A stretch of DNA of 64,000 bases from NCBI RefSeq assembly GCF_000158175.1, contig NZ_DS999411.1:1912929-1976928 (forward strand), in the 5' to 3' direction. The stretch's first letter is position 1. Each line of letters opens with the position of its first letter. The notes under the pieces were generated by a model. It was not told the origin of the DNA. It searched no databases and was given only the letters and a program-made list of their open reading frames with translations. Position numbers and translations under genes: made by a program. This document shows positions 10,611-44,204 of this stretch, piece after piece. The DNA is from Luminiphilus syltensis NOR5-1B (GTDB lineage: Bacteria > Pseudomonadota > Gammaproteobacteria > Pseudomonadales > Halieaceae).

Positions 10611-13411
<2,801 letters not shown>

Positions 13412-20477: not shown

Positions 20478-21346
20478 CGGGGCTGACCGAGTCGCATCAG
20501 ACCCTCCTGTGCTGTTGATGCCAATAGTTTTCCTCGACGGGACCAAAGCTCTCCCCGACTAAATCCCCGGGCGTTGTCAGACCAGGGTGACTCACTGGTG
20601 TAGAGCACAAAATCGTTCAAATCCGGTGGGTTGTGAAACCAGATGGCGTGGTCAAGACTCGCCGCATTGAATTTGCCATCGAACAGGTCACCCTCGTGCG
20701 CAACGAATGCTGCCGAAAGCAGGGTGTAATCCGATAACATCGCGAGGGCAGCCTGCTGAAGCTGAATGTTTTCAGTGGGCATGCGGCCCCGGATGCGAAA
20801 CCACGATGCCTTGTGCGCCCCCCCGGTCTGAGTGGCTCCCTTACTCGCTGTTCGAAGTTCGATGTGAAAGAGGTCGAGCAGGCGGTACCGTTGGTTGAGC
20901 GTGAGGCCCTCTTTATCGATAGGATTCAGGACCTCGCAGTGTTCTGGGTCGAGTATCTCAGGCATGGCTTCTTGATGGCTCAGACCTTCTTCCCTGATAT
21001 GAAAGCTGATGGCGGCGCTGAAAATCGCCTTACCGTTTTGTGAGGCAATCACCTGACGAGTTGAAAAAGAGCGACCATCGCGCAAGATTTCGACGTCAAA
21101 TTTAATGGGTAACTGCGGATCCCCTCCGCGCAGAAAGTAGGCGTGCATGGAGTGCGCGACGAGTGTATCCGGGACACTCAAGTAGCCGGCCAGAAGCGAT
21201 TGCGCCAAAACCTGGCCGCCAAATACCCGTCCCTCAGCCTGGGGACTATCGCCAAAGAGTTGACCGTGGTCGCGAGGCCGCGGTGACATTTGACGCATCA
21301 TTCGAAGAAAGGGGTTCTGTATTTCGACGGATTCCACGGCTATCAA
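20474..21346 (-). CDS. tesB: Acyl-CoA thioesterase II (TesB family)
   Basis: 290 residues, double hot-dog fold. N-terminal half contains GRVFGGQVLAQSLLAGYLSV and SMHAYFLRGGDPQLPIKFDV, the C-terminal half ASLDHAIWFHNPPDLNDFVL (catalytic Asp) and GFSRGELWSRRGKLLASTAQEG, all TesB hallmarks. It cleaves acyl-CoA to free acid and CoA, typically to release chains that block beta-oxidation. A TTG start overlaps the stop of the double-TetR gene (TTGA); a GTG 9 bases further in is an alternative. Likely co-transcribed with, and controlled by, that regulator. Confidence 0.93.
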   Translation of the reverse strand: MIAVESVEIQNPFLRMMRQMSPRPRDHGQLFGDSPQAEGRVFGGQVLAQSLLAGYLSVPDTLVAHSMHAYFLRGGDPQLPIKFDVEILRDGRSFSTRQVIASQNGKAIFSAAISFHIREEGLSHQEAMPEILDPEHCEVLNPIDKEGLTLNQRYRLLDLFHIELRTASKGATQTGGAHKASWFRIRGRMPTENIQLQQAALAMLSDYTLLSAAFVAHEGDLFDGKFNAASLDHAIWFHNPPDLNDFVLYTSESPWSDNARGFSRGELWSRRGKLLASTAQEGLMRLGQPR

Positions 21347-22617
21347 ACAGACTTCAGACCGAAATAGAAGACATCGAAATAGTCAACTGCCGTTGAGTCC
21401 AGATCGTCGACCTTTCGCCATAGGTCGATGTCCATTGATGCGTTTATAGCGCCCATCATCAGGTTTTTGACCACCGTGGTGCCAATGGGTCGTAACAGTC
21501 CTTCGGCGACACCCTGATCAATAAAGCTGGCCAGATAATCATTCAGGCGCTCGGTTCGAGCCAGCACCTTGCGTCGTTTCATGGGAGATAGCGCGGTAAT
21601 AGTGTTGTAGCGGATAAGGGGTCCGAGTTCTGAGTTTTGAACATTAAAAATTCGTCGGCAGGCTTGGTCGAGTTTCTCGGGTCCGTTGAGCGACTGCGCA
21701 TCGATTTCAGAATGAATAGCCTCTAACTGATCCATTGAATAGTCGTAGCATTGTGTGAGTAATGATTCCTTGTTGGCGAAGTGATAATAAAAGGCGCCCT
21801 TCGAGACCTGCAGGTTTTCAGCGATTTCGTCCAAAGAAGTGCCATTGAAGCCCTTCGTATTGAAAAAGCGTGTTCCCGCTTTGAAAAAGGCCTCCTGCTT
21901 GATTCTATTCTGCGCTTCACGATCAAACCCTCGTGCCGATACAGGGGTTCCTTGCATGAAAGGATGCATGGCGGGGTTGTAGTCACATTCCGCTGAGAAT
22001 AAGCCGCGGGTAAAGAGGTCGCGCATGGCGCCACCCGCTCTGGCGGCGTCGGCTGGTTTCATCTCGTAGAGCCAGTAAAAAGACCAGTCCAGGGCGCCGA
22101 TAAGAGCTCTTGCGGTCGTGGTGGAATGGCTCTGGCGGATAGTTCCTGATGTCATGCCCTCGCGGAGATAACCCCTGACGCGAAGAAATATATCGAGATA
22201 GCGCTTCTCGAGGAATTCCTTGTGTCCAGCCTTTAGCGAGGCGATCTCTAGCGGTGCTGCAAAATAGTCGCCTCTACCAGCCAGGGCATCCAGAATGGTA
22301 TCGAAATGCCGTTGCATAAAGCCCAGAATGCGCTCTAGCGGGTCATTGGTCTCGAGCTCAACCTGATCCAATGTCTGATGCGCATTGGCAATCGAGGCCT
22401 CGTAGCATTGGAAGATCAGGTCTTCCTTGGTTTTAACGTAGTAGTAGAGGCTGGTTTTGGTCAGCCCCAACTTCGAGGCGACATCGGCTAGCGTCGTCGC
22501 TCGTGCGCCTCGGGTATTGAAGAGCTTTGCAGCCCGCGACAATATGGCATGACGCTTAGCCTCGTGTTGAATGCCGCGATTGAAGGGAGATTCGCTGCTG
22601 CTGGGTTGTCCTGCCAA
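21343..22617 (-). CDS. Tandem TetR-family regulator (two complete TetR units in one protein)
   Basis: 424 residues, twice the length of a usual TetR protein. The first unit has its helix-turn-helix at about residues 41-60 (TTLADVASKLGLTKTSLYYY) and a ligand domain to about 215. A second, clearly related unit begins near residue 235, with helix-turn-helix at 260-280 (TSLDEIAENLQVSKGAFYYH) and its own C-terminal domain. Start is a TTG; no ATG is near. It forms an operon with tesB and is divergent from an enoyl-CoA hydratase gene, so it likely senses an acyl-CoA. A perfect 14-bp palindrome lies 25 bases upstream and is a likely operator. Confidence 0.88.
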   Translation of the reverse strand: MAGQPSSSESPFNRGIQHEAKRHAILSRAAKLFNTRGARATTLADVASKLGLTKTSLYYYVKTKEDLIFQCYEASIANAHQTLDQVELETNDPLERILGFMQRHFDTILDALAGRGDYFAAPLEIASLKAGHKEFLEKRYLDIFLRVRGYLREGMTSGTIRQSHSTTTARALIGALDWSFYWLYEMKPADAARAGGAMRDLFTRGLFSAECDYNPAMHPFMQGTPVSARGFDREAQNRIKQEAFFKAGTRFFNTKGFNGTSLDEIAENLQVSKGAFYYHFANKESLLTQCYDYSMDQLEAIHSEIDAQSLNGPEKLDQACRRIFNVQNSELGPLIRYNTITALSPMKRRKVLARTERLNDYLASFIDQGVAEGLLRPIGTTVVKNLMMGAINASMDIDLWRKVDDLDSTAVDYFDVFYFGLKSV

Positions 22618-23580: not shown

Positions 23581-26500
23581 TTAACTATCGGCAGGCGCGT
23601 TAAGTCGCTGCCACTCCCGAAGCGCTGTTTTACTGCGATCTTTAACCGAAATGATCTTCTCCAATTCTTCCTCTGTGAGGGGTGCACGACCCCTCGTACT
23701 CGATTTCTCGAGTTCATCAGTCAGTTTGGCAAGCGCTGTTGCACCTATATTGAGGCTCATTGACTTCAGTGCATGAGCTCGCTTTCTGAGGCTTTCAAGA
23801 TCTTCGCTTCGGACTAACTCCCAAAGGGATTCGACCTCGTTATCCGCCTGGTTTTCGAACGCGTTTAGTAGCCTCTCAAGGAGTCCCGCGCCGGACTGTG
23901 GATTAAGCTTCACAATCGAATTCAGAGTTTCTTCTTTAACAAGCGCAGCATTTTCTGGACTAATGCTGATAGTGGTAGACGCTAGGGCCTGTTTTTCAAG
24001 CGGTTCTTCATTGTTAGAGCAGGCAGGTGCCAGTTTTCGGATGGCCTTCTCAATTTGGGGTGCTGTACAGGGCTTCATTAGGAAGTCATCCATCCCTGCT
24101 TCAAGGGCACGTTCGCGCTCATTAGCAACAGAGCCTGCCGTCAGTGCAATAATAACGCTGGGGTGGCGGCCTTCTGCAACTTCGAATCGACGAATTTCTC
24201 TCGTGGCGTCAAATCCATCCATGATGGGCATTTGACAATCCATGAGGACCAGGTCGAAATGATGTTCTGAAAAAAGGGCGACACCACGCTCGCCATTCTC
24301 TGCAATCGTTGTATCGAAACCCAGGCTTGCCAATATCTCAGCTGCAAGCATCTGATTGACGACGTTGTCCTCGACCACCAGCACTTTGCCACTTAAGTCA
24401 CCTGGTTTGTCATCTGTCGGCTCAACCAGTGGTACTCCAGAGCAGGCGTCCACCAGACCTGCGGTTGTAATGGGTTTGTGCATGCAAGACCATTGGCTTG
24501 TAGATCGGCGTTGTCCCAGGCTATGTATTCCCGTCATGAGCACCTTTTGAGCACTGCTTTTACTCGATTCGATATCGTAGATCACCGACTGATCGAGTTT
24601 TTCGTCAACTAGAATGGCGTTGCTGACGACTAGTGAATCAACCTCTTCTGGACTTACTCTCAAGCATTCAATACCCACCCTGATTCCCAACGAGGTAATT
24701 GACTGAGCAAGTAGATCGTCGTCCGTAATCACTCCGACACGAAAATCGAAACTGATGGGCTGTATCTCTACTGGCATCAATGGCAGTTCGACTTCCACAA
24801 GAGTGCCCGTGCCGTCGCCAGACTCAAGAATGTCCAATTTGCCGCCCAATAGGGTTGCGAAATTGCGGCAAATGGTAAGACCAAGACCAGTGCCGCCATA
24901 TTTTCGGGTGGTGCTGGCATCTGCCTGAGTGAATTTCTCAAATATCCTATCTCTGACCTCCTCGTGGATGCCGATACCCGTATCCTGAACCGCAATAGAA
25001 ATGGTGTCGTCGATAGTGCGCTGCACACGAACCGTGATATGACCTCTGTCAGTAAATTTGATGGCATTACCGAGCAGGTTGGTCACAATCTGCCGGATTT
25101 TCTGCGAATCGCCGCGATAGCGGTTGGCAATGCCTGCCTCTGGCAAATGATAAATCGCCAGCCCTTTCTTCTGCGCCGGCTCGCCCTGCAGATAGCAGAC
25201 CTCATCAATCAATTCGATCAAGTCGAAGTCAGTTTCTTCCACTTCCATGCGATCCGCCTCGATTTTGGCGAGATCGAGAATTTCATTAATCAGATGCAGA
25301 AGCGTTTTTCCACTGTTCAATGCCGCTTTTGTAAAGCGACGCTGTTGCGGCGTGATGTCGGTCTTGATGAGCAATTCGTTCATGCCAATCATGCCGTGCA
25401 GCGGTGTGCGAATCTCATGGCTCATTACTGCCAGAAATTCCGATTTTGCACGGTTGGCTTCCTCCGCCTCGCGAGTGGCGAGTTCAAGGTCGAGCGTCCT
25501 CTCCTGTACTCGCTGTGTGAGCTCTCGCTCTCGCGCCTCGGCTTGGGCCAAATTCACGCGCGACCGCCACATCAGCAACGCGATAAGTGCCAGTGCGGAA
25601 AGCACGTAGGCAATGTATGCCAATTGACTCAACCACCAGGGCGGGCTCACCGCGATGGGTATCTGTAGACCCTCCCAATTCCAGTTGCCAAAACTACTCT
25701 TGGCAGCAACCTCCAGCATGTAATCGCCGGGCGGCAACGTAGTCAGGCTCACGGTTCGCTCATTGCCTTTATAAATCCACTCCTCTTCCAGTCCATTAAT
25801 TCGATACGCGTACTGTATCTCTTCGGGAGCAATGTATTCAGCCGCGAAAAACTCGATCGAAGCGATCTTGTCTTCGTGTGACAGATTTAGTGAAAAGTTG
25901 GTATCTGTGGCGCTGAAAGGAATTTGGGCTTCCATCACTTTGATTGAGGAAATACCAACCTTTATGGGTGGTGGCTCTTTTACACCTGAGACATTCGCGA
26001 GAATATGAACACCGCGAGTGCTACCAAAATATATTCTATTGGGATTCTTGCTAAAGGAAGCTCCCATGTTGAATTCGGTTCTGCGTAAACCTAGCTGAGT
26101 GCTGAAGTGCTGATATTCGAAATTGCTTGGGTCGAATCGAGTTAATCCTAGGTTATGTGATAACCAGATCAGTTTTTTTTCATCGTAGTGTATGCCAAGA
26201 ATAGATAGGCTCGGTAGCTGGAGCTGACGTGACAAGCTTTGTGCAGATTCAATGTTTCCCAGGTTATCGCGCTTAACGTGGATAAGACCGTGGGTATATG
26301 TGCCTACCCAGAGTTCATTATCTTGGCCATGAGCCAGCTCCCAAACCAGCACATCGCTAACATTGGATCCTTCAGAGCTACTAAGGTATTGAGAAAGGCC
26401 TAGAGGCTTCAATTTTTTTAACTGGGGATCAAGATGCATGATTCCATTTTGGGTGCCAACTAAAACTCCACCATCAAAATCTTCAAGTAGTGCAAAAGCA

Positions 26501-27972
26501 CTGTCGTTTTCTGATCCAGTCGTGCCCGATCGGATAGTACGGATGACTCTGCCGTCTTCTGATACTACGCTCAAACCGCCGCCCCACGTGGCAACCACTA
26601 TCTCTCCTGAGGGAGTGCTGGTAATGGCAGTAATCCCACGAGAATGCAGTGCGAAGTTGGAGTCGGGATCATAGTCAATTGGATAAACGGCATCCTCGCG
26701 GATTTCGTATTTAAATAGGCCTCCCTCAAAGGTTCCGATCCAAAGATTATTTTCGTCCGCATTAAGAGCCATGATCGTGTCGTCGACCAGCGCCTGGTGC
26801 GTCCCACTATTGATCGATGAAAAGCTCGAAGATCCTGGTTTTCTAAAGTTCACCCCAGCTTCAGTACCTATCCAGAGCGTTCCATCTTGTGTTTCGACTA
26901 TGGCGTTAACTTCGTCGCTTGAAAGATCAGAGTTGGATTGATTGATGGTTTGGAGAACACTCTCTCGCCCTTGGACGAGACCTCGATGCGTCCCAATCCA
27001 GAATGTTCCATCGCTGGATTTGTTAATACTATATATCGGGTCGTCAGGTATCCCATCATTGAACTCCGTATAAATCGAGAAGGTTCTTCCACCATCCTCA
27101 CTTATCGCGACGCCCTCGGCGGTACCAACCCAGATTCTTCCATCTTCATAAAAAGTCGTATAAACGACATCAGACGGTAATTGAAGGTAAGTCTTGTCCG
27201 CTGTGATTTGACGCTGTTGTTTAGTGCCTATGTCATATACGAAAACCCCAGCATTCTGAGTTGCAAGCCATATCTCATTTTCATGAATCTCGGCAGAGTA
27301 TGGATAACTATCAGAGACGGACGCGTCGGCTATAATGGGCTCGGCAATTATCTCCGTGCCATTTATTTCAAGTTTATAAACGCCTTTATCTGCTAAAAGC
27401 GCATAAGCTGAATCTTCACTTGAGTTGATGATATCGATAACACGATCTTCATCGTCAAATAAGTCCAATGGAAGTGGAAAAGAGAACATCTTCTCAACTT
27501 CCGGCAGGAAAACACCGATCGCCCCCTGCATTCCTAGCCAAATTCTATTCCTACCGTCGATAGACATAGAAAAAATTGATAAGTCAGCAGTTTCGAGTAC
27601 GGCAGGGGTGTTGAAGGATCTGTTTGCAAGATCGAAAGATTGAAGAGATGTAGATTTGGCGACCCAAACAATCCCTTCCGTGGTCTCTACAATCCCACGA
27701 AATTGTCCCGGGGCAAGATTCCCTGCATTGTTAGCCGCGCTATATTGCTCGACTCTCTTACCGTCGTATCGATTTAGGCCTTCCTGTGTTGCGAACCAGA
27801 GCGAGCCAGATCTGTCCTGAAGTATACTGGTGACTACACTTTGGCTGAGACCTGCGGAAACAGGAGATTCCCAAAAAATGAGGTCAGTTGTGGCTAAGCT
27901 AGCTTCGGCTTGGTGGGGACCTAGCTGGCTAATTAGTCCTACCGCTAGAATCCAGTTCGATATGCGCAACAT
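23581..27972 (-). CDS. Hybrid sensor histidine kinase with periplasmic beta-propeller (Reg_prop-Y_Y_Y-HisKA-HATPase-REC-REC-HPt)
   Basis: I start at ATG 27972 (1463 residues), which yields a signal peptide ([15 protein letters not shown] to about residue 24); a TTG 51 bases upstream is possible. In order: about 14 two-component-regulator propeller repeats (residues ~45-715; many copies of a LWIGT-x-GV/GL-like motif), a Y_Y_Y domain (~715-780), one transmembrane segment (~785-805), a coiled coil, HisKA with phospho-His 852 ([12 protein letters not shown]), HATPase (NLLGNAIKF and GGTGLGLTI), a divergent receiver (~1095-1185), a receiver with phospho-Asp 1245 ([11 protein letters not shown]), and an HPt domain with His 1400 (RAHALKSM). 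This is a BarA/ArcB-style phosphorelay with a large periplasmic ligand sensor. The sensor part is visibly more AT-rich than the kinase part. No DNA-binding output is attached, so the HPt must pass phosphate on; the nearest receiver is the REC-GGDEF-EAL protein three genes away. Confidence 0.9.
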
Positions 27973-28083
27973 TTTTGGTCTGGCCAGTGATGAATATTTC
28001 GGCTGTGATTGTCGGTAGTGCAATAAATACCAGCAACTTGAGTGACGAGATTATCATCATATTGCGCCTTAGGTGATTCATGC

Positions 28084-28122
28084 ACACACAAAAAAGGAGG
28101 CTTTGCCCCCTTTTTTGTGTGT
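28084..28122 (-). terminator. Rho-independent terminator of the repeat-peptide gene
   Basis: An 18-base arm at 28084-28101 pairs with 28105-28122 (one mismatch, loop of three). The arm contains a run of A and the opposite arm a run of T around a GC block, so it can terminate in both directions. It begins 20 bases after the TAA of the peptide gene and separates it from the kinase gene, so the peptide is probably made from its own strong, discrete mRNA. Confidence 0.85.
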
Positions 28123-28141
28123 TGGTTTGATAATGCAGTTA

Positions 28142-28606
28142 TTAACGTAAGCCTTGGCCCACTCGGATGCCCCAGCGGTGCCGCACCTGATCTGCGTCTG
28201 CCCTGATTCCCCAACGATGTCGCGCTTGATCGGCGTCTGCTCTAATTCCCCAGCGATGGCGTGCTTGGTCGGCGTCTGCTCTGATTCCCCAACGATGACG
28301 AACCTGATCAGCGTCAGCACTTTCTTCATTGCTGGCTACAGGAGCATCGGTAGCAGAGGTATTGGATTCTGCCCACTTTAGCGTGGCACGGTTGCTGCTC
28401 GCTTGTGCATCGGTATTTGCTGAGGAAACAGCGCGCCCCTCTGCCCACTTGAACGTGGCGTAGTTACTTTTTCCGGCGATGCTACCCGCCACATTCTGAA
28501 CGGCAGTCATACCACCGCGAAGTTGGTCTTCGGCAACCGTTGTTGACGCTGCGATGGCGAAACAGGCCGCGATCGATGTGGTGCTTACGATTTTCTTAAT
28601 GCCCAT
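28142..28606 (-). CDS. Secreted repeat-peptide precursor (candidate signalling peptide; unknown family)
   Basis: 154 residues, ATG with a GAGG Shine-Dalgarno 8 bases upstream. Residues 1-25 form a signal peptide (KK, then hydrophobic VSTTSIAACFAIAA, cleavage likely after TVA); C15 in IAAC could alternatively be a lipobox but the hydrophobic stretch before it is short. After a Ser/Thr/Ala-rich pro-region with two W-centred units (ATFKWAE at 50-56 and ATLKWAE at 74-80), residues 97-148 are four exact tandem 13-residue repeats of ADADQ(V/A)RHRWGIR, and the protein ends VGQGLR. All repeats end in Arg. I do not recognise the family. The overall plan resembles fungal pheromone precursors with repeated copies and acidic-Ala spacers. 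It lies between a subtilase gene and a sensor-kinase gene on the same strand. Function is inferred, not shown. Confidence 0.8.
   Translation of the reverse strand: MGIKKIVSTTSIAACFAIAASTTVAEDQLRGGMTAVQNVAGSIAGKSNYATFKWAEGRAVSSANTDAQASSNRATLKWAESNTSATDAPVASNEESADADQVRHRWGIRADADQARHRWGIRADADQARHRWGIRADADQVRHRWGIRVGQGLR
28163..28318 (-). repeat. Four tandem 39-bp units encoding the 13-residue peptide repeat
   Basis: Units at 28280-28318, 28241-28279, 28202-28240 and 28163-28201 (in order of translation) each encode 13 residues, and the peptide differs only at position 6 (V, A, A, V). At DNA level 11 of 13 codons vary among copies, ten of them by synonymous changes only; the Arg at position 7 uses CGT, CGC, CGA and CGG in the four copies. 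Only the GAC (Asp2) and TGG (Trp10) codons are invariant. Such divergence with a fixed peptide implies an old array under selection for its amino acids. Confidence 0.95.
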
Positions 28607-28717
28607 GACTGTTACCTCGTTAACTGCGTTGTCTCTTGGAAAAAGGTGCGCGGTGCTGCGCTTTCCTTGATGTCATGACTGACTCTAGAGACGACTGGAG
28701 GTAAGTCGAAGCATATC

Positions 28718-28737
28718 CATTACCCAAATGGGTTATG
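28718..28737. promoter_or_regulatory. Imperfect 20-bp palindrome upstream of the peptide gene
   Basis: Two 10-base arms centred between 28727 and 28728 (cattacccaa and atgggttatg) pair at 8 of 10 positions. It sits in the 173-base gap between the subtilase gene and the peptide gene, about 110 bases before the peptide ATG. No T tract follows on the minus strand, so it is more likely an operator than a terminator. I found no convincing -35/-10 pair in this gap. Confidence 0.4.
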
Positions 28738-28779
28738 TGATCAACTAAGGTTAATGTCGGTTGGAAATGGGGTTGACGG

Positions 28780-30729
28780 TTAATCCGAGGTGCTTAGTGA
28801 CTCTATTTTGGCGCGTTCGGACTCGTATTTTTGGAGCCATTCGATGTTCAGGGGCCCAAGCCTGTCAGCGCTGAGGTGGCCGTCGAGGCGCTCCAGGTGC
28901 TCCTTTACCCCCCAGTGCACCGTTTGGCTGGCACCCTCTGCTGGCTCATCCCTAAGCCGCTGCTGCAGCCCCGGCAATGTTGGCGCGCCATTTGAATCCA
29001 CTTCGGCGGGGCCTAGTAACTGTTCTGTGCCGAGCACAGCAGCATCGATATTCATACCCAGATTTGCGCAGCCTTTCTCCCCCAATGTGATTGCCCGGCT
29101 GGCACTGGCATGGCCTGAGCCTTGAACAAATGGGCTGTACCTGAGGGTTCCGTCCGGGTTAATGGCGGGCTCAGCGCTGCTTGTCAGCATGCATTTGATG
29201 TCGTCATTGCTCAATGAGGGGTCAAGTTGCAGCAGCAGAGCGGCTATACCCGAAACAACCGCCGCCGCCTGGGACGTGCCAGTGGCAACGTATAAACCAG
29301 ATCTGAGCTGGTAATTGGGGTTGTCCCTGACGAGAGTGGAGCCGGGGGGAACGATGCCAGTCATATGACCACCGGGCACGACGATATCTGGCTTGGCGTG
29401 CCCCGTAGGTGTGGGGCCTCTAGATGAAAAGTCGGGGATATAGTCGTCGCTACGATCGACAGGTGTCCACGAGTCGGTCGTGGCGCCTACGGTAATCACG
29501 TAGGGGTTGTTTCCAGGGGAGCCAACACTTGACCACGCCGGGCCCTCATTCCCCGCCGCGGTAACCACGACAATGCCCGCCTGCCAGGCTTTGAGAACCG
29601 CTTGATTAATCGGATCTCGCCAGTACTCAAACCGGGGAGCTGCCGCCAGTGATAGATTCATCACGCGGATGTCGTATTGTTCGCGGTGCGCAATGACCCA
29701 GGCGATGCCGCGAATAATATCCAGAAAGTCACCACTGCCATCGGCATCGAAGACTTTGACGGGGACGATCCTGGCGTCGGGTGCGACGCCGAGATAGCTG
29801 TGGTGTTTGGAGCGGGGTGCCGCTCCACTATTAAGGAGAATGCTGGCGATATGTGTACCGTGACCACTTTGATCGAGGAGTGCAGCGCTTTCTTTGTTTT
29901 CAATGGCATCGAAGCGTGCAATCACGCGGTCTTTTCCAGCGGTATCCTCTGCCAGCGGAGGCACCTCCCAGAATCCGGAATCCACGACGGCGATGGTCAC
30001 TCCTTTTCCTGTGACGCCCTCTGCATGCAGGAGATCGGCTCCGACGACTCGCGTGTAGTAATACTCGTGGTCATTGTCGGGATACGCTGGAATCAATGTG
30101 GCGGAGCAGCCATCGGCACTGGCGATAATCGAGTAATCATTCTGGGAAGAGGCTACAACCGACTCACCGAAAATCAGCGATAAGGTGCTGGCGCCGGGAG
30201 GCAGCGAGATACGGTCGGTTGAAAGATGGGCAGGCCCCTGCGGTCGCTGACGCGCTGTCAGGATATCTTGCGCGTTCAGCCGGGCGCTCTCCAGTGCGCC
30301 GATGCGATCGGGCCAATCGAGCGCTATCGATTTCAGGCCCTTTGCTGTGTCGGAGAAATTAAATAGCTGCCAGCGTACCTCCCGGTCACTCATTTCGAGT
30401 TGAAGGGACCCATCGAGGACGCAGTCGCGTTCTTCCGGTACTTCGACCGGATTAAAGTCCTCCACGACACGATCGACGCCAGGAGATAACTTCAGGGTTT
30501 TGAGCATGGATCGAGGTAGATTGCCACCCACGCCAGATACGATCGGGAGCGAGTGGGTGACATTGCCTCCAAGGGATTCCAGTGTGGTGGCAAGCCCGCT
30601 GAGGTCCCCGCCCTGAAGCAATACCTGAAGTTCCTCGCCGTCGGCAGACGCTGTTCCGCCGGTCCCTGAGGCGGGCAGGGGCGGGGAGCCCAGTATCAGC
30701 AGCGCCACCAGTAAGCGAGCACCGTTCAC
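28780..30729 (-). CDS. Secreted S8-family (subtilisin-like) serine protease
   Basis: 649 residues from a GTG overlapping the upstream stop. An N-terminal signal peptide (to about residue 21, LLVALLILGSPPLPASG) is followed by a pro-region of roughly 200 residues with an I9-like stretch, and the protease domain with catalytic Asp250 (VTIAVVDSG), His290 (SGHGTHIASILL), oxyanion Asn394 (AAGNEG) and Ser486 (GTSQAAAVVSG). A C-terminal extension of about 120 residues (rich in Glu/Leu, containing HWGVKEH) has no recognisable domain. All catalytic residues are present, so it should be active in the periplasm or outside. It is in one operon with the REC-GGDEF-EAL gene and immediately upstream of the repeat-peptide gene, whose repeats all end in Arg; processing of that precursor is a possible role. 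Confidence 0.93.
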   Translation of the reverse strand: MNGARLLVALLILGSPPLPASGTGGTASADGEELQVLLQGGDLSGLATTLESLGGNVTHSLPIVSGVGGNLPRSMLKTLKLSPGVDRVVEDFNPVEVPEERDCVLDGSLQLEMSDREVRWQLFNFSDTAKGLKSIALDWPDRIGALESARLNAQDILTARQRPQGPAHLSTDRISLPPGASTLSLIFGESVVASSQNDYSIIASADGCSATLIPAYPDNDHEYYYTRVVGADLLHAEGVTGKGVTIAVVDSGFWEVPPLAEDTAGKDRVIARFDAIENKESAALLDQSGHGTHIASILLNSGAAPRSKHHSYLGVAPDARIVPVKVFDADGSGDFLDIIRGIAWVIAHREQYDIRVMNLSLAAAPRFEYWRDPINQAVLKAWQAGIVVVTAAGNEGPAWSSVGSPGNNPYVITVGATTDSWTPVDRSDDYIPDFSSRGPTPTGHAKPDIVVPGGHMTGIVPPGSTLVRDNPNYQLRSGLYVATGTSQAAAVVSGIAALLLQLDPSLSNDDIKCMLTSSAEPAINPDGTLRYSPFVQGSGHASASRAITLGEKGCANLGMNIDAAVLGTEQLLGPAEVDSNGAPTLPGLQQRLRDEPAEGASQTVHWGVKEHLERLDGHLSADRLGPLNIEWLQKYESERAKIESLSTSD

Positions 30730-32546
30730 GAGGCTTGAGTTGAGGATCCTGAATCAGTAATTAGCGGGAGATAGTTCTGCTCCGAGGCGGCCATTAAATC
30801 TCCGACCGGCATCGGTCGACCCAGCAGAAACCCCTGCAGGATTTGACAGCCATGGTCGGCGAGGAAAAGGGCCTGCTCTTTCGTTTCAACGCCCTCCGCC
30901 ACGACGGTGAGATCGAGCGCGTGGCAGAGCCCGAGTATTGCTCGCACAATCCCATCGCCGTCGGGTGTGCCAATGTCATTAATAAAACTTCGATCAATCT
31001 TGAGTGTATCGATGGGGAAGTGACGGAGATAGCTCAACGAGGAGTAGCCGGTACCAAAGTCGTCAATGGCGAGTTTGAAGCCCAAAGCCTTCAATTGGCG
31101 AAGTTTATCGAGATTGTGCTCGGCATCGGTCATTACGACGCCCTCGGTTAACTCAAGTTCCACCGTATAGTTCAGATCCAGCTGTTTGATGATCTGCGTG
31201 AGGTGCGAGACGAAGTTGGATTGTCCGAATTGGATGGGAGATAGGTTGATACTCACCGATACACTGCGGGGAAAATTACTACCTGATTTTCGAGCGTCGG
31301 CATCGACTTCGCGCAAAATCCAGTCACCGAGCGGTCGAATGAGCCCGGTACGCTCGGCAACGCCGATAAATTGATCGGGGGGGATGGCGCCCAGTGTAGG
31401 GTGTTGCCAGCGTATAAGCGCCTCCACACCGCACATCTCGCCGGTTCGGGTGTCGATCTGTGGTTGGTACATCATGCGCAGACCGCCGGTATCGAGGGCG
31501 TCACGCAGGTCTTCTTCAAGCTGAAGCTGCAACTCGGCGTCGTCTTCAAGGGATTCGTCATAGACGCGCAAGCGGGCACGGCCGTCGGCTTTGGCGGCAT
31601 ACATGGCGGCATCCGCGTGGCGAAGCAAAAGCTCTGGGGTCTGTCCATGAAGGGGCGCCATAGCGGCTCCGATACTGGGTGTCAGTACCAGGGCATGCCC
31701 CTGAATCTCCACGGGATCATTCAGCGATTCCATGATCGCATTACCAATATCGGCAAGATGCTCAATACTCGCGGGATTGCGCACCACCACGGTAAATTCA
31801 TCACCGCCAGGACGCGCCAGTTCAAAGGCGAGTGAATCAGGATCGGCGGTGACCGCGGCGCCCGGATAGTCGCTGATAATGGTCGCTATCTGTGTCAGAG
31901 CGTCCTGAATTCTCACTGCCATATTCCTGAGCAGGTCGTCACCGCGCTCGTGCCCAATCGAGTCATTGATCCGCTTGAAGTGATCGACGTCGATCACAAT
32001 GAGCCCTGTCAGGCTCTCGCGCTTGTGACCGTCGATCAGATTCCGTCGCAACTGCTCATTGAAACTGCGTCGATTGGGCAGGTCGGTAAGGTGATCAAAG
32101 TAGGCGAGGTAGCGCAGCCGGTCTTCCTGCGCCTTGAGCTCATTGAACGCTTCTGCGGCACGCAGCATGTACCGAATATCCCGGCTAAGCAGTGACCAGT
32201 TAATAGGCTTGGTTTTGTACTGTGTGGCGCCAGCATTGAAGCCGCGATCAATGGAGTCTGCGTCCTCGGCACCGGTTGCAATCAGTACCGGCACGTTCAT
32301 ACCTTGCGGCAGGGCGCGTATCTCGGCGCAGACCTCCAACCCGGTTTTGCCGGGCATTTCGACATCGAGGAATACCAGATCCGGCAACTCTGACTGGAAT
32401 GCCTCAAGTGCCTGGATGCCGTCCTCAGCGTCTATAACATCCATCCCCGCCGCTTCGAGACACTCTCGCGCCAGAACGCGGACCATCAGGTCATCGTCGC
32501 AGACCAGAATCTTCGAGGCTTTTCTGTTCGGAGTCGTCGCTTGCAC
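30726..32546 (-). CDS. Response regulator with GGDEF and EAL domains (c-di-GMP turnover)
   Basis: 606 residues, GTG start. Receiver domain residues 10-130 with phospho-Asp61 (LVFLDVEMPG) and a conserved Lys in YKTKPIN; GGDEF domain about 145-325 with intact GGDEF at 247-251; EAL domain about 340-590 with EAL at 375-377, LELTEGVVM and the DDFGTGYSSLSYL loop. No RxxD inhibitory site is visible before GGDEF. Both synthesis and breakdown of c-di-GMP are possible. It is the first gene of the minus-strand cluster, overlapping the subtilase gene by four bases (GTGA), and has no DNA-binding domain. The hybrid kinase downstream has an HPt domain that could phosphorylate Asp61. Confidence 0.93.
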   Translation of the reverse strand: MQATTPNRKASKILVCDDDLMVRVLARECLEAAGMDVIDAEDGIQALEAFQSELPDLVFLDVEMPGKTGLEVCAEIRALPQGMNVPVLIATGAEDADSIDRGFNAGATQYKTKPINWSLLSRDIRYMLRAAEAFNELKAQEDRLRYLAYFDHLTDLPNRRSFNEQLRRNLIDGHKRESLTGLIVIDVDHFKRINDSIGHERGDDLLRNMAVRIQDALTQIATIISDYPGAAVTADPDSLAFELARPGGDEFTVVVRNPASIEHLADIGNAIMESLNDPVEIQGHALVLTPSIGAAMAPLHGQTPELLLRHADAAMYAAKADGRARLRVYDESLEDDAELQLQLEEDLRDALDTGGLRMMYQPQIDTRTGEMCGVEALIRWQHPTLGAIPPDQFIGVAERTGLIRPLGDWILREVDADARKSGSNFPRSVSVSINLSPIQFGQSNFVSHLTQIIKQLDLNYTVELELTEGVVMTDAEHNLDKLRQLKALGFKLAIDDFGTGYSSLSYLRHFPIDTLKIDRSFINDIGTPDGDGIVRAILGLCHALDLTVVAEGVETKEQALFLADHGCQILQGFLLGRPMPVGDLMAASEQNYLPLITDSGSSTQAS

Positions 32547-42515: not shown

Positions 42516-44204
42516 GTGTCGAAAACAAATATTACGGTTCCTGATATTGGCGGCGCCGAGGGCGCCGAAGTGGTCGAGGTCCTGGTCGCCGTCGGTGACG
42601 CAATCGAGCAGGAGCAGAGCCTCATCGTGCTCGAATCCGACAAGGCATCGATGGAAATTCCCTCAAGCCATAGTGGTACGGTTGTTGAGCTGAAAGTCGC
42701 CGTGGGTGATGCGCTGTCGGAGGGCGATATTATCCTGGTGGCCGATACCGGCGAGTCGGCAAGTGCCGCCGAGCCTTCCGAAGCGGACACCGAAGCGGAC
42801 ACCGAGGCAGCCCCCAGCGACAACGAATCTGCGCCAGAGACAGCGTCAAAAGATGCGGAGGAGGACGCGGCGGAGGAAGGTGCAGATGACGCCCCCGCAG
42901 AGGATCAAGAGCGTCTTGTGCCAGTCCCGGACATTGGTACTGACGACGATGTTGAGCTGATTGAAATCGTTGTTGCTGAGGGTGATGCCGTGGAGGAGGG
43001 CGATTCCCTCGTCGTACTCGAATCAGATAAAGCGTCGATGGAAGTGCCCGCACCTGAGGCCGGTGTGGTTACCGAGATCCTTGTGAAGTCCGGCGAGCAG
43101 GTGCGTCAGGGAACCGACATTGTCAGGTTGCGGGTAAAGGCCGCGAGTCCAGCGACCCCTGAGCCGAAGCCCGGGTCTCCGGAAGAGCCTGCAAAACCAG
43201 ACGATACGGCGGTCGAATCTACACCGCCAGCGGCGAGTCAGTCGGCCGCCGAGCCAGCCGCCGAGCCAGCTGCCGGGCCGGCTACTGCAGACTCCTCCAC
43301 GGGTGATTTGGCCTATGCCGGTCCGGCCGTGCGCAAGCTGGCCCGGGAGTTTGGTATTGACCTTGGCAACGTCGAGGGGTCTGGCCCGAAGTCACGTATT
43401 CTCAAAGAGGATCTGCATCAGTTTGTCAGCGGCTCACTGAAGAAGGAGCCGGGTGGTCCCGCGGGTGCAGGCATACCCCAGGTGCCCGGGACCGACTTCG
43501 CCAAGTTTGGTGAGGTCGACGCCCAGCCTCGAAGCCGTCTGGATAAACTGACCGCAGCCAACATGCAGCGCGCCTGGTTGAACGTGCCGCATGTTACGCA
43601 ATTTGATGATGCAGACATTACCGATCTGGAGACCTTCAGGAAATCACTCAAGGCAGAGGCTGAGCAGCGAGGCACACGGATCACGCCGATACCCTTTCTA
43701 TTGAAAGCCTGCGCGGCCGCGCTGAACGCTCACCCAAAGCTTAAGAGTTCGCTTGCTGATGGTGGCGACACATTGGTCCACAGGGCGTATTGCCATATTG
43801 GTATGGCGGTCGATACTCCGGCGGGTCTGGTAGTGCCGGTAGTGCGTGATGTGGATAAAAAATCGCTCTGGGAGTTGGCAGAGGAGGTTATTGAGTTGGC
43901 GACTCTGGCTCGGGACAAGAAGCTGAGGCCCGATCAGATGCAGGGTGGCGTTTTCAGTGTCAGCAGTCTGGGTAACATTGGTGGAAAGGGCTTTACGCCT
44001 ATCGTTAACACGCCGGAAGTGGCCATCCTGGGTGTCAGCCGAGCGTCCGAGCAGCCGGTCTGGGATGGCGCCCAGTTTGTGCCGCGCACGCTGCTGCCGT
44101 TATCACTGTCCTACGACCACAGGGTGGTTAACGGAGGTGACGCCGGTCGCTTCTTGACCGATCTAGTGGGGTTGCTCGGCGACCTGCGGCGTATTCTTCT
44201 CTGA
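42516..44204 (+). CDS. aceF: Dihydrolipoamide acetyltransferase (E2) AceF with two lipoyl domains
   Basis: 562 residues, GTG start. Two lipoyl domains with lipoylated Lys43 and Lys172 (both in ESDKASME), each followed by an Ala/Glu/Pro-rich linker; a peripheral subunit-binding domain near residues 265-305 (AYAGPAVRKLAREFGIDLGN); and the catalytic domain to the C-terminus with LSYDHRVVNGGDAGRFL. E. coli AceF has three lipoyl domains, pseudomonads two; two here. The linker between residues ~210 and 255 contains an EPAAEPAAGPA repeat. Converges on ppc within 8 bases. Confidence 0.96.
   Translation: MSKTNITVPDIGGAEGAEVVEVLVAVGDAIEQEQSLIVLESDKASMEIPSSHSGTVVELKVAVGDALSEGDIILVADTGESASAAEPSEADTEADTEAAPSDNESAPETASKDAEEDAAEEGADDAPAEDQERLVPVPDIGTDDDVELIEIVVAEGDAVEEGDSLVVLESDKASMEVPAPEAGVVTEILVKSGEQVRQGTDIVRLRVKAASPATPEPKPGSPEEPAKPDDTAVESTPPAASQSAAEPAAEPAAGPATADSSTGDLAYAGPAVRKLAREFGIDLGNVEGSGPKSRILKEDLHQFVSGSLKKEPGGPAGAGIPQVPGTDFAKFGEVDAQPRSRLDKLTAANMQRAWLNVPHVTQFDDADITDLETFRKSLKAEAEQRGTRITPIPFLLKACAAALNAHPKLKSSLADGGDTLVHRAYCHIGMAVDTPAGLVVPVVRDVDKKSLWELAEEVIELATLARDKKLRPDQMQGGVFSVSSLGNIGGKGFTPIVNTPEVAILGVSRASEQPVWDGAQFVPRTLLPLSLSYDHRVVNGGDAGRFLTDLVGLLGDLRRILL

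Follow-up and report, generated by a model that had tools for sequence, protein, structure and literature searches.

Four genes lie side by side on the minus strand within a stretch of 64,000 nucleotides of Luminiphilus syltensis NOR5-1B, a marine bacterium with a genome of 3.26 Mb (contig NZ_DS999411.1, positions 1,912,929 to 1,976,928; hereafter the window). They raise the question of what a small secreted protein built of tandem repeats does between a secreted subtilase and a sensor kinase, with a REC-GGDEF-EAL protein encoded next to them. Judged from the genes and their relatives, this conserved set looks like an undescribed peptide-signalling system. In our best explanation, to which we give about an even chance, the cluster would be a module in which the subtilase frees species-specific Trp peptides that are sensed by the propeller of the kinase and set cyclic diguanosine monophosphate (c-di-GMP).

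A preliminary description, made from the letters alone, had placed four open reading frames (ORFs) here, and we found all of them at those positions; the gene set, order, strand and intact catalytic residues that it listed were borne out by ORF coordinates, Pfam matches and an 18-row alignment of the S8 protease. The response regulator, the proposed c-di-GMP output (30726..32546; Pfam Response_reg, GGDEF and EAL), shares 4 bases with the gene of the secreted S8 subtilase, the proposed processing protease (28780..30729; Pfam S8). The catalytic Asp, His and Ser of the latter, in the motifs DSG, HG[TS]H and G[TS]SQ, are invariant in the alignment (18 sequences including the window), as are W605 and G606, and a WGVK motif near its C-terminus resembles the repeat core. 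The repeat precursor (28142..28606), 154 amino acids long with a signal peptide judged by eye, does contain the four tandem 13-residue repeats first described: the units, ADADQ[AV]RHRWGIR, occupy residues 97-148 (28163..28318). Upstream of them stand two degenerate W motifs, TFKWAEG (28436..28456) and TLKWAES (28364..28384), whose W54 and W78 are, respectively, invariant and at least 90% conserved in a 17-row alignment of the repeat family. Neither Pfam (E 0.001) nor NCBIfam (E 0.1) had a model that matched the repeat protein. The proposed sensor (23581..27972) is a hybrid histidine kinase with Pfam Reg_prop, Y_Y_Y, HisKA, HATPase, REC and HPt domains; it starts with ATG, and a TTG further upstream, at 28023, fits too. 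All these features are on the minus strand, as is a terminator-like hairpin of 17 bp with a T-rich 3' arm (28085..28121; -26 kcal/mol, z -8.2) that stands between the repeat and kinase genes; even expression of all four genes from one transcript is therefore improbable. Terminator-like hairpins follow 17 of 27 repeat genes, a count made without shuffled control, and the hairpin of the window was not among the calls of a simple promoter/terminator scan that itself performed at chance level.

Members of the repeat family are secreted proteins in which an export signal, judged by eye, is followed by 4-13 near-identical 13-residue units in tandem, almost all with W-x-x-R/K as their last residues. 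The copies of the window array are unlike at most codons and only A/V varies in the protein (proportions of silent and amino-acid-changing differences, pS 0.833 and pN 0.022), which is not what recent slippage would leave; the high silent divergence between copies ruled out both chance and recent slippage as the origin of the repeats. For the comparison of units, 28 distinct genes were phased by W spacing alone, including the K-ending ones of genomes G227 and G365 and excluding locus L111, in which the W is shifted; the constancy of W is partly built in, since W sets the phase. Positions 7, 8, 9, 11 and 12 were alike in all copies in 25, 26, 25, 25 and 23 of these genes, with pooled pS 0.517 and pN 0.019 at the five positions and pN 0.194 at positions 1-4. 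The consensus nonetheless varies by species (Y/S/H/N/F/M at position 8, G/I/V/S/A at 11, I/L/V/M/R at 12), the 28 genes thus showing purifying selection for copies that are identical and species-specific. The core also varies within the genus (RHRWGIR, GSRWVIR, ASRWIIR, ASRWVMR), as expected, at the level of sequence, of peptide types. Of the 28 genes, 26 have R as the last residue of the unit and the two named above have K; in 23 this residue is the same in every copy. The R of the unit is the exact C-terminus in 22 of the 24 complete precursors (those of the window and of G005 bear short tails), which sets the unit boundary behind the basic residue and suggests that the last copy would need no cut. 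Selection on the units and the position of their boundary would both fit cleavage after a basic residue.

We then asked how far the genes travel together. Among 117 relatives searched by protein, the repeat family (E 0.01) was found in 20, the subtilase (E 1e-30) in 31 and the sensor (E 1e-30) in 26, and none of the three was found at these thresholds in the remaining 85. All 20 relatives with the repeat gene have the subtilase and 19 have a sensor match; in the twentieth (G071) a cut sensor ORF adjoins the repeat gene, and in G028 the sensor gene runs into the contig end. The contig ends inside the protease gene or at most 170 bases past it in four of the 31 protease relatives (G007, G010, G052, G065). 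The other 27 have the repeat gene (20, with the array gapped in G040 and frameshifted in G002), a non-tandem small secreted protein (four), a Trp-repeat array fused to the protease (two, the Halieaceae G062 and G064) or neither (one, G057). The non-tandem proteins (G031, G046, G049 and G054) have 108, 105, 112 and at least 92 residues and two W motifs, and are encoded in the same place; the WGVK-like tail of the S8 protease is absent from these four Luminiphilus genomes. In G057, which is 96% complete, neither the repeat gene nor the sensor was found at the site (L179) or elsewhere in the genome; the gene normally following the kinase adjoins the protease, and the protease and GGDEF-EAL genes remain. 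We counted this joint absence in favour of peptide signalling.

Gene order was compared in 33 Halieaceae-type loci, 29 with repeat precursors (one gapped, one frameshifted) and four with the non-tandem protein; G005 was excluded because its repeat gene is split over two contigs. The subtilase gene is directly upstream of the repeat or small-protein gene in 33/33 loci, the propeller kinase starts at most 1 kb downstream in 26 of the 28 with enough sequence (the exceptions are G061, with a sensor match on another contig, and G399, with a gap of about 1.4 kb), and a gene for an EAL protein is found no more than 300 bases from the S8 gene in all 32 loci with sequence there. In an order-wide sample of 390 genomes, the repeat profile matched 16, and the protease profile (E 1e-60) matched the same 16 and two of another family, in which Trp-repeat arrays (DADNAGYIWNM, SPENAGFIWNL) form the end of the protease and continue up to the edge of the contig. 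The check proposed in the preliminary description, a search for the same four-gene neighbourhood in relatives, thus had a strongly positive outcome. Two observations that it had named as unfavourable did not materialize: repeat homologues away from both subtilase and kinase were not seen in the loci examined, and kinase and protease do not lack the repeat gene in most relatives (20 of the 27 informative ones have it). Strict linkage of the S8 and repeat genes, together with fusions of S8 and array, would be in keeping with a dedicated protease, for which cleavage is predicted.

Other genes accompany the cluster. A second propeller protein follows the kinase in 16 other Halieaceae-type loci, many of which add a second GGDEF-EAL gene, and a single protein with two TetR_N stretches (21343-22617 in the window) is also encoded near the cluster in relatives. 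The window contains three further short tandem arrays of 12-base units (10879-10915, 42778-42805, 43245-43279). The arrays, or the bases just ahead of them, are frequent breakpoints in assemblies (G005, G007, G010, G065, G072, G288, G415, G468), so short-read genomes will under-report the gene family.

Beyond the Halieaceae-type loci, the array is found on the protease itself. The named genomes were scanned with the protease alignment, and the best 80 of 447 loci were studied. Among these, subtilases with C-terminal hexapeptide arrays (GYLWTD, SMLWAD, GTSWNE, GYTWSN) occur in Gammaproteobacteria (Alteromonas, Chromatiaceae, Woeseiaceae, Steroidobacter and others), Acidobacteriota and Anaerolineales. 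The 18 fused arrays measured, which come from 14 of the 17 loci tried (L108, L115 and L180 gave none under the rule), had pS 0.19-0.97 and pN 0.00-0.22. Since the array is a C-terminal subtilase tail in related bacteria, the most plausible reading of the Halieaceae form is a precursor that would have split off from such a protease. Three fused proteins were scanned against Pfam and NCBIfam, and in none of them did a model cover the tail. Among the 18 array-bearing proteases, of which one is truncated where its contig stops, 11 have a conserved WVx[QN]E at their C-terminus. Two Halieaceae genomes also have fused arrays, L180 (6691-9675) and L181 (3062-4948), one with at least 50 copies of GNYWNA and the other with SYFFND, in which F replaces W. 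Tails such as SVIWGN, IVWGTT, ASRWG, TYWDQ and GSTWT are carried by subtilases of Acidobacteriota, Actinobacteria and Chloroflexota that have no propeller neighbour (L120, L138, L147, L154, L161 and others).

In 15 non-Halieaceae genomes with fused-array subtilases, propeller sensors were found near these in 10, where 0.18 would be expected from the Y_Y_Y matches per genome; the 15 were hand-picked from the 26 closest loci after the neighbourhoods had been seen, and L111, the sixteenth searched, was left out as Halieaceae-type. Of the loci among the 26 that fall outside this count, L103, L106 and L113 have a propeller, none was seen in L098, L099, L110, L112 and L114, where the contig ends at most 1 kb from the protease, and L094 and L117, which are additional loci in the genomes of L097 and L116, have none. 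Upstream genes were left out of the propeller scan for L090 (G468). A GGDEF or EAL domain is present on the sensor or a neighbour in eight of the 10 propeller genomes (none was seen in L093 and L104). The sensors include hybrid kinases beside REC-GGDEF-EAL, propeller-GGDEF proteins (L092, L115, L163, L181) and propeller-GGDEF-EAL (L091). A class-wide sample of 369 genomes yielded the protease in three besides the window genome: two adjoin a propeller-GGDEF(-EAL) gene, and for the third, scanned on the downstream side only, the contig ends 52 bases after the protease.

The sensor and its presumed partner retain the residues of a phosphorelay. The phospho-His, REC Asp and HPt His of the kinase are conserved in every covering row (21, 19 and 19 of 24 rows), and the REC-GGDEF-EAL protein keeps the REC Asp in 23/23, the EAL Glu in 23/23 and GGDEF in 22/23 sequences (one has GGSEF). 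The window kinase is the sole Y_Y_Y match at E 0.001 in its genome. By sequence it resembles the solved sensors PDB 4a2l and 3v9f, which we take to be from Bacteroides, and it has the Reg_prop, Y_Y_Y, HisKA, HATPase and REC domains of the hybrid sensors of that type. The latter carry a C-terminal AraC-type helix-turn-helix output domain; Pfam gave no match to one in the window kinase, which has HPt in its place. The hexapeptide motif DGYLWTD resembles, by eye, the Reg_prop blade motif DGTLWIGT of the window sensor (23581-27972), possibly as a strand mimic. With rows taken from the same ORF, 16 of 26 taxa had all rows; in these, peptide distance follows sensor distance after NadA correction (r 0.47, p 0.0007), and the corresponding value for the kinase domain was r 0.007.

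AlphaFold2 (AF2) gave the window precursor a mean predicted local distance difference test score (pLDDT) of 43.8, with no residue at 70 or above and the array drawn as a low-confidence helix. In a fused protein, the array had a pLDDT of about 20 and was drawn as neither strand nor helix; with this model, Foldseek had subtilase-family structures among the matches listed.

In the mechanism that we propose, the repeat gene would yield an exported, unfolded precursor that the neighbouring subtilase would cut into 13-residue units after the terminal R/K, so that each precursor would release a single species-specific Trp peptide in several copies, with a core of about QxxYKWGIR, which in the window reads RHRWGIR. 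Either this peptide or the array as such would be bound by the neighbouring hybrid kinase through its periplasmic propeller, and phosphate would pass via the REC and HPt of the kinase to the receiver of the REC-GGDEF-EAL protein, altering c-di-GMP; the signal may pass between cells. The preliminary description had drawn its own model from the parts: the gene set on which it was built now has strong support, and the links between the products are those that we infer. The fused form, the hairpin and the many Trp-tailed subtilases that lack a propeller neighbour were beyond the reach of that description. A processed array, read by a propeller and wired to c-di-GMP, is the simplest account of the linkage, the fusion, the identity within genes, the change between species and the unit boundary. 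A wider version is tentative and on balance doubtful: a Gram-negative multi-copy pheromone system that would originally have been a self-liberating Trp-tailed subtilase, split in Halieaceae, with a propeller receptor, c-di-GMP output and species-specific peptide types. Related modules extend to at least one acidobacterium as well as to other Gammaproteobacteria, and Chloroflexota too have fused arrays.

Several observations weigh against peptide signalling. Among the best 80 loci, Trp tail and propeller neighbour were not associated (11/45 vs 6/35, Fisher p 0.58), because many subtilases of Acidobacteriota, Actinobacteria and Chloroflexota have W tails and no propeller; the tail may thus have an older or second role. 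Viewed post hoc, the six propeller loci scored as lacking a tail comprise split arrays (L106, L111, L113), degenerate arrays that were missed (L101, L103) and a contig-cut one (L121), and a boundary at tblastn E 2e-89, also drawn post hoc, divides the 80 into 26 closest loci with a propeller in 14 and 54 others with one in three. In the L111 array the W is displaced one residue further on, giving a W-R-R ending, and the window unit holds internal Arg residues at which an Arg-only protease would also cut. The four Luminiphilus genomes combine protease and sensor with a two-W small secreted protein that has no tandem array, and G057 retains the protease and the EAL protein alone. The AF2 fused model is weak overall (mean pLDDT 51.9) and the AF2 alignments are shallow (4 and 9 rows), so that the models lend weak support to an unfolded precursor. 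The co-variation of repeat and propeller put forward in the preliminary description was seen in the NadA-corrected distances but is not independent of the protease: peptide distance tracks the distances of S8 and of REC-GGDEF-EAL no less closely than that of the sensor, and the sensor correlation was gone once S8 was controlled (p 0.25). The whole gene block may simply evolve together.

Two rival explanations are live. The repeat protein could stay uncleaved in the periplasm and bind the propeller directly as a modulator, which the protease would remove or adjust instead of freeing peptides from it. The small secreted protein gene directly upstream of the sensor gene and the non-tandem version in four Luminiphilus genomes speak for such a modulator, and the abstract on DbfQ and DbfS of Vibrio cholerae offers a precedent (PMC12714742). 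We nevertheless find it rather unlikely, since 4-13 near-identical copies under selection, precursors that stop on a unit boundary, a precursor with no confident AF2 fold and arrays fused to the protease all fit a processed array better. Alternatively, the Trp repeats could be a protease tail with a structural, anchoring or substrate role at the surface or matrix, the sensor and c-di-GMP genes regulating a secreted protease and their adjacency being regulatory. Trp-tailed subtilases with no propeller nearby in Acidobacteriota, Actinobacteria and Chloroflexota agree with this, as does WVx[QN]E at the end of 11 of the 18 arrays measured; we hold it to be unlikely, as the predicted tail has no confident fold, the array of Halieaceae usually forms an exported protein of its own, core residues change between species in all copies at once, and G057 lost the repeat gene and sensor yet kept the protease. 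Finally, the repeats could serve as decoy or inhibitor substrate, a cheap array that reports or buffers protease activity while the propeller system monitors envelope proteolysis. The hairpin after the repeat gene fits separate expression and the WGVK motif of the S8 protease resembles the unit, but cores that are species-specific and identical within each gene would be left unexplained, and we regard this as very improbable.

How, then, would a peptide-signalling module compare with known systems? We did not find the combination described in the open-licence PMC literature, in a search of titles and abstract starts that covered part of the matches, with preprints outside it. Cyanobactin precursors are cut by the PatA/PatG subtilases, and they share with the present cluster a multi-core precursor and a subtilisin-like protease; unlike there, no modification enzyme is among the four genes. 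Assignment of the S8 protease to the cyanobactin-type proteases of ribosomally synthesized and post-translationally modified peptides was rejected (48.5 bits vs the PatA NCBIfam cut-off of 421.05), as was assignment to the mycosins of type VII secretion (132.8 bits vs the TIGR03921 cut-off of 278.75). The PopC protease of Myxococcus makes the C-signal, which, like the proposed module, involves a secreted subtilisin-like protease and an intercellular signal in a Gram-negative bacterium; its product is single and larger and has no tandem precursor.

DbfQ, a small periplasmic protein of Vibrio cholerae, binds the sensory domain of DbfS according to its abstract (PMC12714742). As presented there, the DbfQRS system resembles the cluster in pairing the gene of a small exported protein with that of a sensor kinase and in its biofilm and c-di-GMP output, which for the cluster is a proposed one, whereas the abstract names neither protease nor tandem units (PMC12714742). 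In the loci studied here, a small exported protein (judged by eye) is encoded next to the sensor kinase in 26/28. With the hybrid sensors 4a2l and 3v9f, the window kinase shares Reg_prop propellers, Y_Y_Y, HisKA, HATPase and REC in one protein, and it differs in its HPt domain, its separate REC-GGDEF-EAL partner and the lack of a match to an AraC-type domain. The propeller sensors of Bacteroides have glycan ligands; if the explanation is true, a sensor class otherwise tied to glycans would gain a peptide ligand, extracellular proteolysis would be tied to c-di-GMP, and an apparently unnamed Trp-repeat subtilase tail present in several phyla would get a name.

To our knowledge, multi-copy peptide precursors are characteristic of signalling in fungi and animals, and we know of few peptide signals in Gram-negative bacteria. 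A further likeness is to yeast, where precursors of the alpha-factor type are processed by the subtilisin-like Kex2. Common to both are an exported precursor, several near-identical copies held alike, a basic unit end and a protease of the subtilisin family. Alpha-factor acts on a G protein-coupled receptor, whereas here the proposed receptor is the propeller kinase and the proposed output c-di-GMP; in the bacterial case, protease and precursor are encoded by linked or fused genes.

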